This document shows positions 53,583 to 61,372 of a stretch of 64,000 bases of DNA, piece after piece. Numbering within the stretch: position 1 is the stretch's first letter; each line of letters begins with the position of its first letter. The notes beneath the pieces were generated by a model. It saw only the letters and a program-made list of their open reading frames with translations, was not told the DNA's origin and made no database searches. The translations under genes were made by a program, and so were the position numbers. Source of the DNA: an uncultured Cohaesibacter sp. (lineage in GTDB: Bacteria > Pseudomonadota > Alphaproteobacteria > Rhizobiales > Cohaesibacteraceae); the NCBI RefSeq assembly GCF_963676485.1, contig NZ_OY781114.1, forward strand, positions 620,001-684,000, given 5' to 3'.

Positions 53583-53960
53583 TCAGACCGTCTCAACCGT
53601 CGATACCTGAAAGGTAAAGAGGTCTCCATCTTCGTCTTTGATCGAAACATATTCGCCCGGCACAAAAGCATGTTTACCAAAGCGATAGCCAGCCTCGACA
53701 TCGTCTTCTCCGTCAATATCATAGGTAAAGGCCCAACTGCCGCCGGGCCGATGAACAAGATGGCCATGCTCGTCATTCTCTCCTTGCCAGAAGCGACGCA
53801 CACGACATAGCTCCCTATGCGTACGCCAGATTTCGGCATCAATGAATCCCTCCTCGTCCAAAGGCGCGACGAATTCATAGCCGTGCATCGCACTGCCGTT
53901 GGGATGGTCCGCATTGCGCGCCAGATTAAGGCGGATTTTCTTCATAGTGCCATTGGCCAT
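53583..53960 (-). CDS. Conserved hypothetical protein
   Basis: A 125-aa soluble acidic protein with no signal peptide or membrane helix and no family I can name. It reads as a small beta-rich domain: MKKIRLNLARNADHPNGSAMHGYEFVAPLD, RTHRELCRVRRFWQGENDEHGHLVHRPGGSWAFTYDID, and FVPGEYVSIKDEDGDLFTFQVSTVE. GGGGAGGA lies 7 nt before the ATG, so expression is likely. An FNR-type box about 235 bp upstream could drive it, since a CATAAG element lies at a suitable distance on this strand. Confidence 0.8.
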   Translation of the reverse strand: MANGTMKKIRLNLARNADHPNGSAMHGYEFVAPLDEEGFIDAEIWRTHRELCRVRRFWQGENDEHGHLVHRPGGSWAFTYDIDGEDDVEAGYRFGKHAFVPGEYVSIKDEDGDLFTFQVSTVETV

Positions 53961-54204: not shown

Positions 54205-54321
54205 TGCATGTACAGGCCATCACCGCCAAACTCCGGGCCGACCTCTCAGCACGCATTTGGTGTCGGTTTACAAGCATTGAGAGATAACACCCCAAGTAAA
54301 AGGCGATCAGGACCAGATCCA

Positions 54322-56118
54322 ATGGGCATTCAACGTTCCCAAGGCAGAAGACCAGCTCCAGTGGGCAGAGCCCCCGAAGCTGAAGGCGCGCTCGGCAAAG
54401 CCGCTTCGCACGCCAAGGACCGCTACCAGTCCATTCAGGAACGGGTTGTGGCCTTTCTTGGCGATCCGCGCAGCTATGGGTTGGATGCACCTGTCGAGCG
54501 TCTGGAGACGCCTCAGTTCCTGTTTTTCGTGGCTGGTCCTTTTTGCTACAAACTGCTGCGCTGTAATGCGCTTGGCCGAAGTGAGCCATTTTCCCTTGCC
54601 CAGCGTCATAGTCTTGCTGCGCAGGAAGTGCTTCTGGGGCGCAGCTACGCGCCGGAGCTTTACCTTGATCTCATTCCCATTCGTGAGCGCGGCACGACAC
54701 TCACCATGCAACTGCCTGTGCCGGATGCCGAAGAGAATGCACAAGAGGTTATCAGCCATGGAGACGAAAGCGCGATCGTAGACTGGGTCATCGTTCTGCG
54801 CCGCTATGATTTCTCCAAACGCTACGATCATTTTGCCGAAATCTATCAGCCCAATTTTTCCGAATGTCGGGATCTGGCCCGGCTTGTTCCGCAGGGGCAG
54901 ACCTTCGAGCATTCCAGCGCTCATGTGCATTCATGGCTCATGTTGATGGATGAAATGTTTGATGATCTGGAACCGGTGGTGCGCAAGTTGGCCAAAAAGT
55001 CACGCAAGACCACCTTACGGGCCTGCTTCAATCGGGCTCAGGATCAGCTTGAGCGTATGAAAGACGCGATTTATCGGCGCGCAGAGCGGGGACTTTTTGC
55101 TCAGATCCATGGCAACCTGCGCCTGCGCAACGTCGTCAAACTGAGCGATGGACTGCGAATGGTCAATCCCAAGGTCAATGGCTCCAAGAGCCTGATGCGT
55201 GACCATATCGGGGATCCATTCTACGACCTTGCCACATTGATTGGAGAATTGTGGTCGCGCGATTTCTCGCGTCAGGCCAACTGGGTCTTCTCGCACTATT
55301 GCAACCGTCTGTTTGACAGTCACGCTCTTGAAGGGTTGCAGGTGCTGGATCTTTATATCTTTTTGCAGGCTCTCGCCGATGCCAAGACCATCAAGGCAAC
55401 TGTGAATGCCCGGGCTTCATCAGTCCAGCCGCTGCCCTCTGCCCTGCTGCGCGGCGGCACCGAAGAAAGTGTCCTGCAAGGCCATATGAAAACCGCGCGC
55501 GATAGCTTGCTGCATGATGAAGCGCGCCTGATTGCCATCAATGGGGCGAGCCAGTCGGACCGCTCCAATCTGGCGCGCCTGCTTGCTCCGATCACCGGCC
55601 GTATGCCCGGAGCGCTCTATCTATCTGCCGAGCAGGAATGTCTGGCTCTCTATGAAGTGGACACCAAGGAACAGCTGCCGCAATCAGCATTACGAGACTC
55701 TGTTTGGGACTTGGTCTACCGGCGCATGATGGAAAAGGCCCGTCTGGCGCTGGCTGCTGGCTATTCGGTTATTCTTGAAGGACCGTTCGACCAGCCGATC
55801 CATAGTGAAATGCTGGAAGATCTGGCCGACGAAATGGGGATGTCTGCGTCTTTTGTCGCTCTTACCCTGCTCAAATGCCGAGAAGAGGATCTGCGCAGAC
55901 GGGAGGCGCTTTCAGCCTTCTTGCCGCAGCATCTGGAACCCCGGCAGTTTGCGGCCCCTACGACGGGCAACGAGCCTCTGCAAAGCACCCAGAGCGTCAG
56001 GGAGCCCATGCGCTGGATCGAGCTGGATGCAACAAAGTCGGTCAGCGATCAATTGAGCCTTGCCCTTTGCCACATCAACGCTGCCTGGACACCAACAGAG
56101 CGCAAAACCCTGCATTGA
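54322..56118 (+). CDS. APH-like plus AAA-kinase-like two-domain protein, catalytic residues degenerate
   Basis: A 598-aa protein matching the layout of the COG2187/COG0645 fusion (aminoglycoside-phosphotransferase-like domain, about 35-320, then a P-loop kinase-like domain, about 400-590). The key residues differ: the Brenner motif is HGNLRLRN (263-270) instead of HGDLHxxN, the metal-binding Asp segment reads MVNPKVNG (280-287) instead of FDxIEFN, and the Walker A region reads GASQSDRS (408-415) with Arg for Lys. Nucleotide phosphotransfer is therefore doubtful. The ATG at 54322 has AGGA 9 nt upstream; an ATG at 54208 abuts the FNR box and is unlikely if that box drives this gene. Confidence 0.85.
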   Translation: MGIQRSQGRRPAPVGRAPEAEGALGKAASHAKDRYQSIQERVVAFLGDPRSYGLDAPVERLETPQFLFFVAGPFCYKLLRCNALGRSEPFSLAQRHSLAAQEVLLGRSYAPELYLDLIPIRERGTTLTMQLPVPDAEENAQEVISHGDESAIVDWVIVLRRYDFSKRYDHFAEIYQPNFSECRDLARLVPQGQTFEHSSAHVHSWLMLMDEMFDDLEPVVRKLAKKSRKTTLRACFNRAQDQLERMKDAIYRRAERGLFAQIHGNLRLRNVVKLSDGLRMVNPKVNGSKSLMRDHIGDPFYDLATLIGELWSRDFSRQANWVFSHYCNRLFDSHALEGLQVLDLYIFLQALADAKTIKATVNARASSVQPLPSALLRGGTEESVLQGHMKTARDSLLHDEARLIAINGASQSDRSNLARLLAPITGRMPGALYLSAEQECLALYEVDTKEQLPQSALRDSVWDLVYRRMMEKARLALAAGYSVILEGPFDQPIHSEMLEDLADEMGMSASFVALTLLKCREEDLRRREALSAFLPQHLEPRQFAAPTTGNEPLQSTQSVREPMRWIELDATKSVSDQLSLALCHINAAWTPTERKTLH

Positions 56119-56173: not shown

Positions 56174-58360
56174 TCAGGCAACCTTGCTTGCATTGCGCTG
56201 TTGTTTGGTCTGTCTTTTCCTAAAGCGGCAGCGCAGCTGGGTTCCGGCCTGATGTGCACTCGATATGGCAAACTCTCCGCCCATGGCCCTAACGAGGCGC
56301 GAAACGAGAATAAGCGGCAGGATTTGGCCTAGCCCCAAATCTTCCAGCGATCGATCTTCCGATAGAGGATCGCGGATGGCGCGTATCTGGCGCGAAGACA
56401 AAGCGGTTCCCGTATCAAGGCAATCGAGCACGACATATTGCCCCGAGCTATGCTCCTTGAGTTCCAGCCGCACGGGGCTTGCACTATCGCTGAGCTGTCT
56501 GTTCAGCGCGCCTTCCACGGTCATTGTGAGGATACGCGCAAAGGCATTGGCGTCGCCATTGACCGTCAGCCCCTTGGTGACGGTGCAATCGATCTGCAAA
56601 GGTCTGTTGCGTACTTCGGCAATGGCCTTGATGCGGGAGGCTTTATCATTGAGCAGAGCAGCAATATCGCAATCATGATCACGGGAGAAGAAGCCCTCCA
56701 CCTGCGCCTCTTCCAAATCGCGCATCATCTCGATCTGGTGCACACCGTGAGACAGGATCTCGGCAGCCGTGATGACGATATTCTCCAACTCCGTCAATTC
56801 TGCCTGCAGGGGAATGTGGCGCGCGAGCTTGCTGATGTCCTTTTCAACCGGAGCCAGAAGCTTCTCCACCGCCTCCTGCCCCCACAGCAAGAAACGCTCA
56901 CCGCCGAGATCACCACCATCGCCAGACTTCAGAATATCCTCCAGCAACATCAGGATATCCTCGGCCTTCACCCGCACGCTGTCTTCGGCCAATCTGATCC
57001 GGGAGACCATGGCGGCGCCCTCTTTCGGGTTGGCACTGGAGGAGAGGATCCGGTCAGTGGCCTTGCTGGTTGCGTCATGAAGAGTGACGATGACCGCGCT
57101 GAAATCTGAGGCAATTTTTGCCAATCGGCTGTTGCGCTCGCCATTTTGCCAATCGGCCCGTTGGTTCAGGTGCATCACACTGGAAATTATGAAGTCCGGC
57201 TCGCTGACAAAACCGAAATGCGAGACGGAAAGACCCCGCTTTTCTTCAACCTCGCCCACGCGCAAGCCGACAACCAGTTTCAAAAACAGGGCAATGATGA
57301 GCGTGACAAAGAACGCCCATGCGGCAATCGCGCTGATGCCGATCAACTGGTTTACGAACTCACTGGCCAACGATGGACTGAGACCTGGCCTGGCGAGAGG
57401 GGCCATAAAACCGCCAACAAGCCCGCCTGACAAAAAGGCAGAAATCAATTCGGCTGGATCGTCCACTTCAATGGAGGCAAGAATGCGGTTGAAGCTGACC
57501 GAGAGCGTCCCTGCAAGAACACCGATAAGGGCGGCGTCAACAGGTTCGGCAAAGGAAGCAACGGCAGTCAGGGCGACTGTGCCGGCCAAGACCGATGTCG
57601 ACACATTTTGTGTTGTCTCGCCGCGCCGCGCTATCATCGGCACCAGCGATCCGGCAACAATGGAAAAGCTCACCCCGATCAGCAAGACGTAAAAGGCCGC
57701 CGCCATATCTTCAAGATTCTCAACATGCATGACAGCCAGGGTAATGGTCGAGGTGACGATCACAACCATTCCCATGCCATACCATGTCGGGCTCTGCCCT
57801 CGTGGACGACCAACCTGCATGGGGAACCGGCCAAGCCGCGGTCCCAGAACGAGAGAGATGGCAAGCCCGACAAAGCCGGCAGATATGAAAACCACAATCG
57901 CGCCGCCAACATCCTCAAAGCCGTTCGCGACCAGCCACCCATCGCCACCAACACCGGAATGCATCGCCCAGTGGGTCGTGACAGGGGCAATGAGAACCGC
58001 AACGGCTGCGACCAGAAAGTTGCCAACATGAAATTTGCCACGCTCAACCATACCCGCCGCAGCAGCAATAGGGGGGACGGAGAACAGCACCAGAAGATGG
58101 AGATCCTGCTCGCCTTGCAACAGATCCTTGCGTTGCATGAAGCCCTTTGTCATGCCGATCAGACCGTTGATCGTTTCTCCGCTATAGAGCCCGTAGCCAA
58201 CGACCCAATAGGCAATGATCGAGATGCAATAAGCTGAGACCATACGCATGAACGTATCAAGCTCGTTGCGATACTTGACTCGCCCTGACAGCACCATAAT
58301 GAGCCCCAGCGGCAAACCAAGCCCGGCGATAGACATAAACATTCGGGCAAATTCTAGCAT
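56174..58360 (-). CDS. Amt-domain histidine-kinase-like fusion with degenerate motifs
   Basis: A 728-aa fusion. Residues 1-375 match ammonium transporters in order (VVGYGLYSGETINGL, VGGAIVVFISAGFVGLA, EVDDPAELISAFLSGGLVGG, LKLVVGLRVGEVEEKRGLSVSHFGF), and the rest forms a helical region and a GHKL ATPase-like domain. In the Amt part both pore histidines are Phe by alignment to AmtB (F158 for H168, F309 for H318). In the kinase part there is no H-box before the second helix, the N-box reads LTMTVEGALN with Gly at the metal-binding Asn (617), and the G1 and G2 boxes (DTGTALS, GLGQ) are altered. It is probably a sensor rather than a transporter. The ATG at 58360 lacks a strong ribosome site. It is convergent with the APH-AAA gene. 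Confidence 0.87.
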   Translation of the reverse strand: MLEFARMFMSIAGLGLPLGLIMVLSGRVKYRNELDTFMRMVSAYCISIIAYWVVGYGLYSGETINGLIGMTKGFMQRKDLLQGEQDLHLLVLFSVPPIAAAAGMVERGKFHVGNFLVAAVAVLIAPVTTHWAMHSGVGGDGWLVANGFEDVGGAIVVFISAGFVGLAISLVLGPRLGRFPMQVGRPRGQSPTWYGMGMVVIVTSTITLAVMHVENLEDMAAAFYVLLIGVSFSIVAGSLVPMIARRGETTQNVSTSVLAGTVALTAVASFAEPVDAALIGVLAGTLSVSFNRILASIEVDDPAELISAFLSGGLVGGFMAPLARPGLSPSLASEFVNQLIGISAIAAWAFFVTLIIALFLKLVVGLRVGEVEEKRGLSVSHFGFVSEPDFIISSVMHLNQRADWQNGERNSRLAKIASDFSAVIVTLHDATSKATDRILSSSANPKEGAAMVSRIRLAEDSVRVKAEDILMLLEDILKSGDGGDLGGERFLLWGQEAVEKLLAPVEKDISKLARHIPLQAELTELENIVITAAEILSHGVHQIEMMRDLEEAQVEGFFSRDHDCDIAALLNDKASRIKAIAEVRNRPLQIDCTVTKGLTVNGDANAFARILTMTVEGALNRQLSDSASPVRLELKEHSSGQYVVLDCLDTGTALSSRQIRAIRDPLSEDRSLEDLGLGQILPLILVSRLVRAMGGEFAISSAHQAGTQLRCRFRKRQTKQQRNASKVA

Positions 58361-58525: not shown

Positions 58526-59074
58526 TCATTGCACGTCGGATTGTTCGGGGCTGATTGTCTCACCGGCCTCATTCGCAAGGCCCACCAGACTGTGCGCGCC
58601 ATTGGCTCCAATCCGCATCATACCAAAGCGCGCAAGGCTGAAAGCCTGCCCGTACCCTTCCTGAAAGAAAAAGGACTCTGGCATCAAGCGGATAGGATTG
58701 ACCCCGGCTGAGGCGTGAAACTCAAAGCTGATCAGGCGTTCATTCTCGGCCAGAGTTTCGCTCTCCTTATAGAAGCGGGCAAAACTGGCTCTGGCCTGTC
58801 CATCGAGCTGAAGCACTATTTTCCCGGTCCCATTGCCGGGAGCCTTCTGCTCCTCATTATCCTTGCGTATCTGCTGCCAAGCGGCATTTGCCTTTTGGAC
58901 AACCGAGTAACGCAACACCATATAGTCTCCCTGCATGATCGAGCGGGGATCAACGGGCGCCAATTCGAGCAGAACCAGCTCACCATCACGGCGTAAAGTT
59001 TCGCGCTCGAAAACGGAGTAATTGAGGATGGCCAGAATAGGCAGAAGAGCCAGCAGGATGAGATGTTTCCTCAT
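58526..59074 (-). CDS. GDYXXLXY domain protein
   Basis: A 182-aa protein with an N-terminal membrane anchor or signal (4-19) and the family-naming motif GDYMVLRY (about 49-56), followed by a domain with GKIVLQLDGQARASFARFY and SFEFHASAGVNPIRLMPESFFFQEGYG. Proteins with this motif occur beside DUF2157 and DUF4401 genes and have no known activity. It is last in the three-gene operon and starts 1 nt after the stop of the DUF4401 gene. Confidence 0.92.
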   Translation of the reverse strand: MRKHLILLALLPILAILNYSVFERETLRRDGELVLLELAPVDPRSIMQGDYMVLRYSVVQKANAAWQQIRKDNEEQKAPGNGTGKIVLQLDGQARASFARFYKESETLAENERLISFEFHASAGVNPIRLMPESFFFQEGYGQAFSLARFGMMRIGANGAHSLVGLANEAGETISPEQSDVQ

Positions 59075-59075
59075 G

Positions 59076-60263
59076 TCACGCCCTCACCTTGCCTGTCTGG
59101 CGGTACCATCCGCGCCAGTAGATATAGCCAGAAGCAAGCAACAGAAGCGCACCCGACATGATCAGGATCATCGACTTCTGCAGCAGCGACAGATCCAGAT
59201 TATAGTAATAGAGAAAGCCGAAAAAGAGCGCAAATAGCAGCCCTAGCATGGTATGGCCGGGCCGATGGGTGGCAAAGCCGAGAATCATCAGCCCGATTGC
59301 GAGCAGAATGCCCGCATTGGAAAGCAGAGCCAGCACCGCAGCGCCCAGAAGGCTTGCCACCACCGGCTCGCGGCCGAGGCTGCCCTTGCGACCGGCGATC
59401 CACAAGATCAGGGTGATCAGCGCGACGCCGAGTATAATTTCGACAGACCAGCGATAGCCAAGCCCCAGGAAGACTTGCACATCATCGGAAACATCGAGCC
59501 ACACCTGATGGCCAATGGACACGAAACTCTGGATCACCCCGACCGCAAGGCAAAGAGAGATCAACAGCGCATCATAAAGGCTCGTCAACTTCTGACGCAC
59601 CAACGGCCAGCGCAGAAAGGCCGCCAATGCCAGAATATGGGCCACGAGCATGATATTGAAACCGGCAAGCTCGAAGTCATCGGGCGAATCCTTCAGCAAG
59701 CAAATCCAAAGCGACACCAAAAAGGCAAAGCTTGCGACAAAGCGCTCGATTGAGGAAGGAAAAGCGAAAAAGCTGAGCAGCATGATCAGCCCGAGAATGG
59801 CAGAAACGGTCCAGAACCAATCGAGCCCGAACGTGTCATGGACGATTTGCGCCAATCCTGTCACGAGTGCAACCTTGCCTGCCTGCAAAAGCGTGAGCGC
59901 CAGCTGGATGTAGAAATCCCGAGCGAGATTTGTCTTGCGCAAGCCACGTGCATGCAGCAGAGCCGCCAGGCCGATGAATAGCAGACCATTGATGCTGAGG
60001 CTGGTCTCGCTAAGATCAAACAGGCCGAACAAATAAAGCAGATAGAGCAGCAGAAACCCCGAAATAACGGCTCCGATGGCACTCAGGGCCCGCAGATAAA
60101 CCGGCGCCTCTTTGTTCTCTCTGGTCTTTATGACGAGAATATCACGGCTGATATCGGCCAATTCTTCATCGCGCACCAATCCGCGCGTTTGCAAAAACGA
60201 GACCCATTGCGATACCCCCGGCGCCTCCATGAGGAAGCGGTAGCCTTTCTGGCCTTCCATCAT
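59076..60263 (-). CDS. DUF4401 multi-pass membrane protein
   Basis: A 395-aa inner-membrane protein with a soluble N-terminus (1-60) and about eleven helices. It matches DUF4401 (LYLRALSAIGAVISGFLLLYLLYLFGL, FLGLGYRWSVEIILGVALITLILWIAGRKG). Function unknown. The start overlaps the stop of the DUF2157 gene by 4 nt, so the two are translationally coupled. Confidence 0.92.
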   Translation of the reverse strand: MMEGQKGYRFLMEAPGVSQWVSFLQTRGLVRDEELADISRDILVIKTRENKEAPVYLRALSAIGAVISGFLLLYLLYLFGLFDLSETSLSINGLLFIGLAALLHARGLRKTNLARDFYIQLALTLLQAGKVALVTGLAQIVHDTFGLDWFWTVSAILGLIMLLSFFAFPSSIERFVASFAFLVSLWICLLKDSPDDFELAGFNIMLVAHILALAAFLRWPLVRQKLTSLYDALLISLCLAVGVIQSFVSIGHQVWLDVSDDVQVFLGLGYRWSVEIILGVALITLILWIAGRKGSLGREPVVASLLGAAVLALLSNAGILLAIGLMILGFATHRPGHTMLGLLFALFFGFLYYYNLDLSLLQKSMILIMSGALLLLASGYIYWRGWYRQTGKVRA

Positions 60264-61372
60264 TGCCCGGCCTCCTCACGATCAAGACCCAGCGCCAACA
60301 GGTGGCGCAAATATCCCGCCGCCGCCGCAAAACAGACGATGGCAGAAACGCCGGTAAAGAAAGTGGTGCCGAGCGAATCAAACAGATTGTCAAACAGCAG
60401 GATCGCCAGCCCCATCACGGCAAGAATACAGATCATGAGGAATTGCATGGCGAGCGCAGGAATATCGGGGCGCCAATAACGAAAGGCAACAAAGAGAATA
60501 AGCGTTACTATGCCGGCCACCAAAGCGCAGAGGGCGACCTGTGTATTCGCGGTCTCCCAATTGGCGATCCAGATCATCAATGGCGGGAAGAGAAACACCA
60601 GCATTCCGGCCAGCAACAACCAACGGGTCCATTGGGGTGTGAGCCAGTAGAATTGAGAGCCTTCTCCCATATGCTCCTTTGGCAGAAGCCACTCTCGTGC
60701 ACAGAGCACAAGGCCAATAATCAGCGCATGAATGAGATAAAGGGCACTTGTATCATCCTTCCTGAGCAATGGCGTGCTGTCCCACCAAAGATAAAAGGCC
60801 AGATTGATCAAGCCCAGCCAGAGCACCCAGAGCGGCAAAAAGCGCCCGATAAGGGTCCAGAGCGTAATGAGGGCGGCCCAAAGCGCAAATAACAGCCAGG
60901 CATCGGCACCGGTCTGGTAGATCTGCCCGAACACAGCCAGAAAGACACCCGTCAGAACCGCAGCCGCCATAAGCAACAAGCGCCCTGCGAGACTTTCCCC
61001 CGGCAGGAGCCATGCGCCAAGTGCAGTTAAAATAATTCCAGCCTCAATGAGAGCAAGTTTGGCCAGATCGGGTATGGACGTCCAATTGAAGGCAAAGAAG
61101 AAAACGATGCCGGTGAGCACCAATCCTGTACCAAATGCCATCAGCATGACCATCGCCCAACGCGCCCATAAATGGGCGGGATGAAGCCAGTTGAGGCTCT
61201 CAAGGCGCACCTGTGCACTGATCGTCCCTCTTTGCGCCAGCTCATCAAGCAAATGGCGATCAAGCGCCACGCCCTTGAACCGGTCCGGATCGATTGGGCT
61301 TTCGGGCTTAAGGTCCATGTCTGCGGCGATCCTCATTTCTTGTGTCGGAGCATTCCAATGAGGCATCATCAC
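60260..61372 (-). CDS. DUF2157 multi-pass membrane protein
   Basis: A 370-aa protein with a soluble N-terminal region (about 1-70, with LLDELAQRGTISAQVRLESLNW) and about ten membrane helices; residues LVLTGIVFFFAFNWTSIPDLAKLALIEAGII match DUF2157. First gene of the DUF2157-DUF4401-GDYXXLXY operon. The role of this membrane complex is not known. No specific promoter motif was assigned in the short gap upstream. Confidence 0.92.
   Translation of the reverse strand: MMMPHWNAPTQEMRIAADMDLKPESPIDPDRFKGVALDRHLLDELAQRGTISAQVRLESLNWLHPAHLWARWAMVMLMAFGTGLVLTGIVFFFAFNWTSIPDLAKLALIEAGIILTALGAWLLPGESLAGRLLLMAAAVLTGVFLAVFGQIYQTGADAWLLFALWAALITLWTLIGRFLPLWVLWLGLINLAFYLWWDSTPLLRKDDTSALYLIHALIIGLVLCAREWLLPKEHMGEGSQFYWLTPQWTRWLLLAGMLVFLFPPLMIWIANWETANTQVALCALVAGIVTLILFVAFRYWRPDIPALAMQFLMICILAVMGLAILLFDNLFDSLGTTFFTGVSAIVCFAAAAGYLRHLLALGLDREEAGQ

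Follow-up and report, generated by a model that had tools for sequence, protein, structure and literature searches.

The stretch of DNA analysed here, referred to as the window, comprises 64,000 nucleotides (positions 620,001 to 684,000) of contig NZ_OY781114.1 from an uncultured Cohaesibacter sp., whose 5.08-Mb genome belongs to the order Hyphomicrobiales of the class Alphaproteobacteria. On the minus strand, an uninterrupted reading frame at 56174-58360 encodes a protein of 728 amino acids in which, as the first-pass annotation had claimed, an ammonium transporter (Amt) domain is joined to a histidine-kinase-like region. Pfam assigns residues 17-382 to Ammonium_transp (E 6.7e-39) and residues 603-715 to HATPase_c, the latter below threshold (E 8.3e-5; 23.4 bits, with the cut-off at 26.4); HisKA was not detected in the Pfam scan, and an AlphaFold2 (AF2) model predicts the fold of a dimerization and histidine phosphotransfer (DHp) hairpin with a catalytic and ATP-binding (CA) domain. 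The further claim that neither half keeps its ancestral residues holds as well, and the losses are shared among 18 orthologs. The features of the gene are as follows.

56174..58360, minus strand: whole gene, Amt-fold/pseudo-histidine-kinase fusion, 728 amino acids (open reading frame and Pfam; 18 orthologs aligned)
57215..58312, minus strand: Amt domain, residues 17-382 (Pfam)
57911..57913, minus strand: D150, at AmtB D160, kept (Asp in 17 of 18 orthologs)
57887..57889, minus strand: F158, at AmtB H168, the first pore His (alignment to AmtB)
57434..57436, minus strand: F309, at AmtB H318, the second pore His (alignment to AmtB)
56930..57142, minus strand: predicted helical hairpin linking Amt and DHp, residues 407-477 (AF2 model of residues 405-728)
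56705..56905, minus strand: DHp-like hairpin, residues 486-552
56864..56866, minus strand: E499, probable place of the phosphoacceptor His (alignment offsets to DivL and HK853, and Pro504)
56795..56821, minus strand: DHp tip, R514-L522 (RHIPLQAEL; entropy minimum at 515-522)
56213..56695, minus strand: CA (HATPase-like) domain, residues 556-716 (Pfam, AF2 model, fold searches)
56510..56512, minus strand: G617, at the N-box Asn place (ortholog alignment)
56414..56416, minus strand: D649, G1-box Asp, kept (ortholog alignment, 18 of 18)

The ortholog search covered 61 genomes, namely the genome of the window and 60 relatives. Full-length relatives with at least 42% identity are present in 17 of the 18 genomes of the genus Cohaesibacter, that of the window included; the exception, G005, is a genome that is 64% complete. 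A further relative with 28% identity (L018) stems from another genus of the Cohaesibacteraceae and, together with the 17 Cohaesibacter sequences, makes up the set of 18 orthologs. Five loci from named Cohaesibacter species or metagenome-assembled genomes (MAGs) are 42-89% identical to the window protein, and a locus from a Crocinitomicaceae MAG reaches 23% in the Amt part alone.

The pore of the Amt domain

By its Ammonium_transp domain and Amt fold, the window protein belongs to the Amt/Mep/Rh family, and it lacks the pair of pore histidines (twin-His) of the conductors of that family. Our alignment places F158 and F309 at H168 and H318 of Escherichia coli AmtB, as the first-pass annotation had proposed; the AmtB chain used (PDB 2npd) itself carries Phe at the first twin-His position. 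Among the orthologs, the first place is Phe in all 18 and the second is Phe in 14, Ala in two, Thr in one and Ser in one, so that His stands at neither place in any of them. A misalignment of the twin-His places was considered and rejected: at these columns, all 55 of the 55 further Amt domains aligned have His/His. They are best matches rather than a random sample, and two genes of the window's own genome are counted twice among them. The motif GWFGFN (AmtB F215-S219 region) is absent from the window protein and L018 and was not seen in the remaining rows of the 18-ortholog alignment. The place of AmtB W148 is Met in the window protein and Trp in 12 of the 18.

The AmtB variant H168A/H318A interacts with NH4+ at the outer site without transporting it (PMC7447429), and double-His variants of AmtB do not support growth on ammonium (PMC3647058). 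Judged by these mutants, the window protein probably does not conduct ammonium. Ammonium may nevertheless be the ligand, since an AmtB devoid of both histidines retains its outer-site interaction with NH4+; a ligand other than ammonium, as the first-pass annotation suggested, is possible as well.

The closest known system of this architecture is Ks-Amt5 from Kuenenia stuttgartiensis (PDB 6eu6), an ammonium sensor histidine kinase in which an Amt domain is likewise fused to a DHp-CA module and which binds NH4+ without transporting it (PMC5764959). Ks-Amt5 retains the His pair, W144, S227, the Phe gate, the selectivity filter and a working H460 (PMC5764959); in contrast, the window protein is devoid of the His pair, the phosphoacceptor and the N-box Asn. 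The closest solved Amt by sequence is Sd-Amt1 of Shewanella denitrificans (PDB 8qj3, 8qj4, 8qpf; E 5.9e-34), a protein that the titles of its PDB entries call a receptor. It is also the best Foldseek match and ties with Ks-Amt5 by VIA-align; it has His at both pore positions, and its output domain differs from that of the window protein. That output domain is a diguanylate cyclase.

These comparisons bear on an explanation in which the protein would be an ammonium receptor proper, sensing NH4+ at the outer site and driving a partner after both conduction and kinase activity had been lost. This is the ammonium version of the explanation that we favour below and not its opposite. D150, the counterpart of an AmtB residue called invariant across the superfamily (PMC7447429), is kept in 17 of the 18 orthologs, the F93 place is Phe in 15 and Tyr in two, and the behaviour of Ks-Amt5 provides a precedent. 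However, Ks-Amt5 has kept both pore histidines together with W144, S227 and the Phe gate, and in the window protein the second gate Phe and the Ser have gone with GWFGFN and the W148 place is variable. We therefore regard a receptor specific for ammonium as possible, with more doubt than conviction. The ortholog L004 has Gly at the AmtB D160 place (residue 150).

The degenerate kinase half

The helical hairpin of residues 407-477, which precedes the DHp-like segment, is modelled with a block predicted local distance difference test (pLDDT) score mostly above 90 and was barely probed by the fold searches, whose rows begin at about model residue 67 or later. An internal DHp duplication was rejected: hhalign found no signal between residues 407-477 and 486-552 (E 0.68 and 0.8).

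E499 was assigned to the phosphoacceptor place from two alignments, that to DivL (start 76 = 531, hence Tyr550 = 499) and that to HK853 structure 6azr (start 79 = 244, hence His260 = 499), with other HK853 rows off by 1-2 positions. This place is Glu in nine orthologs, Asp in seven, Gln in one and Arg in one (an acidic residue in 16 of 18), and the H-box Pro504 is Pro in 17. The H-box was thus rightly called absent, and the window protein does not possess the phosphorylatable His of Ks-Amt5-type kinases. A hidden H-box was rejected as well: Pfam HisKA is blank for the window protein, yet present in L086 and L087, which are ordinary Amt-HisKA-HATPase proteins (HisKA 67 and 83 bits). The N-box Asn is replaced by Gly (G617), as the first-pass annotation had read it, and the place is Gly in 15 orthologs, Ala in two and Leu in one. 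Its statement that the G boxes are altered is correct for the G2/lid region, where 'QILPLILV' stands for 'LGLALV' or similar in outside relatives; it fails for the G1 box, in which all 18 orthologs share the Asp (D649) and the Gly (G651). Hence, the N-box Asn and G2 glycines by which an active kinase holds Mg-ATP are missing, and the G1-box Asp is present. These motifs suggest that the protein neither autophosphorylates nor binds Mg-ATP in the normal manner.

In a profile search with the kinase half, DivL ranked first in the PDB (E 2.6e-27; next 1.5e-19), a match that covers helix 2 and the CA domain only and was made with a profile that draws eight of its 24 rows from beyond the family. DivL of Caulobacter (PDB 4q20) works as a pseudokinase and senses a partner through its catalytic domains; it has PAS domains and Tyr at the phosphoacceptor place, and its H, N, G1, F and G2 boxes are all retained (PMC4211667). 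The window protein resembles it in the predicted DHp-CA fold, the replaced phosphoacceptor His and the alphaproteobacterial origin, and differs through its Amt domain, its degraded ATP site and a Glu where DivL has the Tyr. A separate DivL-like gene with the Tyr motif SYELRSPL (L113, named by this motif alone) exists in the same genome. When the window protein was used by itself, the first kinase match in the PDB was RetS (E 6.4e-4), whose kinase region (PDB 6dk7, 6dk8) is 18% identical over 213 residues at a root-mean-square deviation of 5.2 and whose sensor half differs.

Across the 17 Cohaesibacter sequences, mean per-position entropy is 1.17 bits over the whole protein. The DHp tip (515-522) is the lowest 8-residue block from residue 395 on, with 0.47 bits; the region around the lost phosphoacceptor (491-506) lies at 1.3-1.6 bits. 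Other stretches of low entropy are 467-474 (0.49 bits) and 675-690 (0.53-0.58 bits), and the whole CA domain is likewise well conserved (0.91 bits). The DHp tip is where kinases dock their partners. Within the DHp, conservation thus falls outside the catalytic part, in favour of a docking role for this module.

Phosphotransferases of the ChpT and Spo0B kind offer a comparison for a different reading, in which the DHp would receive phosphate from another kinase on a shifted His, H515 or H541, and hand it on. Both are His in 17 of the 18 orthologs, and the predicted DHp-CA fold with a degenerate CA domain would suit such a role; H515, however, comes 16 residues after the expected position, close to where helix 1 ends, and L018 has neither of the two. 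We consider this reading rather improbable.

Distribution of the double loss

Wider sampling took in 397 genomes from the order and 385 from the class, with usually two candidates scored per genome; here, matches fall from 865 bits to at most 247 bits after L018. Among the proteins examined, loss of the twin-His pair combined with loss of the N-box Asn occurs only in the 18 Cohaesibacteraceae sequences, and among the Amt fusions examined the twin-His loss itself is confined to them. The loss of the H-box, on the other hand, is not peculiar to the window protein: as judged from Pfam, further Amt fusions in the order share it, because modules without HisKA are also joined to His/His Amt domains: L070, L073, L076 and L078 have an intact His pair and HATPase_c at 65-80 bits, and HisKA was not found by Pfam in these four, in L071 or in L018 (HATPase_c at 32 bits). 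This points to a broader group of Amt-kinases that lack the H-box. The MAFFT alignment with outside relatives seems to misplace the DHp of L086-L110, and the column 494-510 was not used for these.

Provided that the H-box Pro is aligned, Arg would take the His place in L073-type proteins, and L078, L079 and L019 show His at the N-box Asn place in the MAFFT alignment. In L071 (genome G114), the Amt domain is accompanied by some 340 C-terminal residues without any Pfam match up to E 0.01. In a tree of Amt domains, made by a quick method without bootstrap and with 16 of the 18 rows (two omitted), the Cohaesibacteraceae form one clade with a Shimodaira-Hasegawa-like approximate likelihood ratio (SH-aLRT) value of 98; the tree joins this clade to L076 via long branches, a join that we do not trust.

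The window's own genome also encodes a canonical Amt and an Amt-PAS-GGDEF-EAL protein, each with His/His; the latter (L082, C1:166388-167554 region) has 1090 amino acids, and a relative carries an Amt-HAMP-MCP fusion (L083). With these two proteins and L113, the window protein is neither the only Amt-domain protein nor the only DivL-like one in its genome. Amt family members are trimers (PMC5764959), and the presence of these other Amt genes leaves room for the idea that the window protein is a non-conducting subunit that mixes into trimers with one of these Amts and regulates them. Yet it is only 26-27% identical to the other Amts of the genome, and G009, G011 and G017 keep the gene without an Amt fusion of 1,080-1,115 amino acids among their listed matches (three each, E <= 0.001), although they do retain other Amt genes. 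Mixed trimers thus strike us as a shade less credible still than the shifted-His phosphotransferase.

Selection and genomic context

Ratios of nonsynonymous to synonymous substitution rates (dN/dS; NG86 method, ten pairs and four regions) lie between 0.005 and 0.13 in 38 of 40 cells, the other two being saturated, and are lowest in the DHp or CA for nine of the ten pairs, the exception being L016/L017. The losses in both halves are therefore kept under strong purifying selection. A decaying fusion without function, for which the many lost catalytic residues might speak, is rejected by these ratios and next to impossible in view of the intact frames in all 18 orthologs, the conserved place of the locus and the conserved upstream element.

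Flanks were compared at 15 of the 16 other Cohaesibacter loci (that of G004 was left out, and L038 ends near the missing gene). A homolog of a major facilitator superfamily (MFS) gene is kept in 15 of 15 and a convergent kinase-like gene in 14 of 15; the latter, at 54208-56118 (plus strand), encodes 636 amino acids with weak Pfam matches alone (AAA_33, FTA2). Upstream of the fusion gene, consecutive genes for GDYXXLXY, DUF4401 and DUF2157 proteins lie at 58526-61372 (minus strand), and a DUF2157 homolog occupies the same place in 13 of the 15 loci. A protein of 125 amino acids without a clear Pfam family (53583-53960, minus strand; best E 0.02) is 74-86% identical in the eight of 15 loci where the script detected it. 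No cognate kinase or regulator was found among the five window neighbours scanned with Pfam.

The upstream element

The gap that separates the upstream gene from the start codon contains an inverted repeat that encloses a sequence resembling the CtrA consensus TTAA-N7-TTAAC (PMC7200025).

58453..58471, minus strand: CtrA-box-like element TTAA-N7-CTAACCAT, beginning 111 bp before the start codon
58450..58478, no strand assigned: perfect inverted repeat around the CtrA-box-like element, in the window species (1 match, 0 expected)

A first promoter scan found the short motif TTAACCAT in six and exact TTAA-N7-TTAA in none of the 18 upstream stretches. At the shared upstream place, 15 of the 17 Cohaesibacter sequences have one mismatch to the CtrA consensus and L016 and L017 have two; L018 has a one-mismatch match elsewhere, on the opposite strand. 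The pattern TTA[AG]N7[CT]TAACCAT, which was composed after the sequences had been inspected, is present in 14 of the 17 stretches (400 bp each) and absent from all 300 shuffled sets, the shuffles ignoring relatedness; its shorter form TTA[AG]N7[CT]TAACC occurs in 15 of 17 and at most once when shuffled. Between deep branches the flanks have diverged and the element has not. Reading the repeat as a terminator is unlikely to be correct, as other species retain the sequence and lose the pairing arms.

The genome of the window contains 21 exact TTAA-N7-TTAACC sites, compared with 13 for a reversed control. Pfam scans around 15 of the 21 place two sites in front of fliF, one between fliX and flgI, one ahead of a MotA/TolQ/ExbB gene, read by us as tolQ, and two before HAMP-domain genes; the remaining scanned sites adjoin genes that are not known to be linked to CtrA, e.g., ferritin-like and alginate-lyase-like ones. 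The motif is a plausible CtrA box in this genome; that CtrA controls the fusion gene is a lead rather than a finding.

A proposed receptor that may signal by conformation

With the ancestral residues gone from both halves and the losses conserved, conformational signalling, which the first-pass annotation had put forward, is the most economical reading. We give a slightly better than even chance to the proposal that the window protein is a conserved transporter-derived receptor that neither transports nor phosphorylates, uses its dead kinase domain as a docking module and is perhaps controlled by CtrA. Ammonium bound at the outer site, or a different ligand, would shift the presumably trimeric Amt bundle; the helical linker would relay this shift to the DHp-CA module, on which, as on DivL, a response regulator or a second histidine kinase might dock; and the CtrA network of cell cycle and motility may set the level of the gene via the conserved CtrA-like box.

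Several observations weigh against this proposal. By fold alone, active kinases score about equal to the DivL pseudokinase. The exact CtrA box is found in none of the 17 Cohaesibacter sequences and in none of the 18 upstream stretches overall, and one-mismatch boxes are unremarkable within the window taken alone, which contains seven against 3.45 expected, with 11 of 100 shuffles reaching seven. A bolder version, in which the doubly dead receptor would feed into the CckA-CtrA network of cell cycle and motility in Cohaesibacter, pass a membrane signal by conformation to a DivL/CckA-type partner and, with its gene under CtrA control, close a loop, we consider unlikely.

Amt receptors that stopped transporting and histidine kinases that stopped phosphorylating are already known. 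In the literature searched, mostly outside subscription journals and in part as excerpts, we found no Amt fusion without the twin-His pair and no pseudo-kinase Amt. A conserved protein with both losses would show that a transporter-kinase receptor can work without either chemistry. The Alphaproteobacteria hold ordinary Amt-kinases, Amt-kinases without an H-box and the doubly altered form, and the steps that may lead from a transporter to a conformational receptor can thus be compared and tested.
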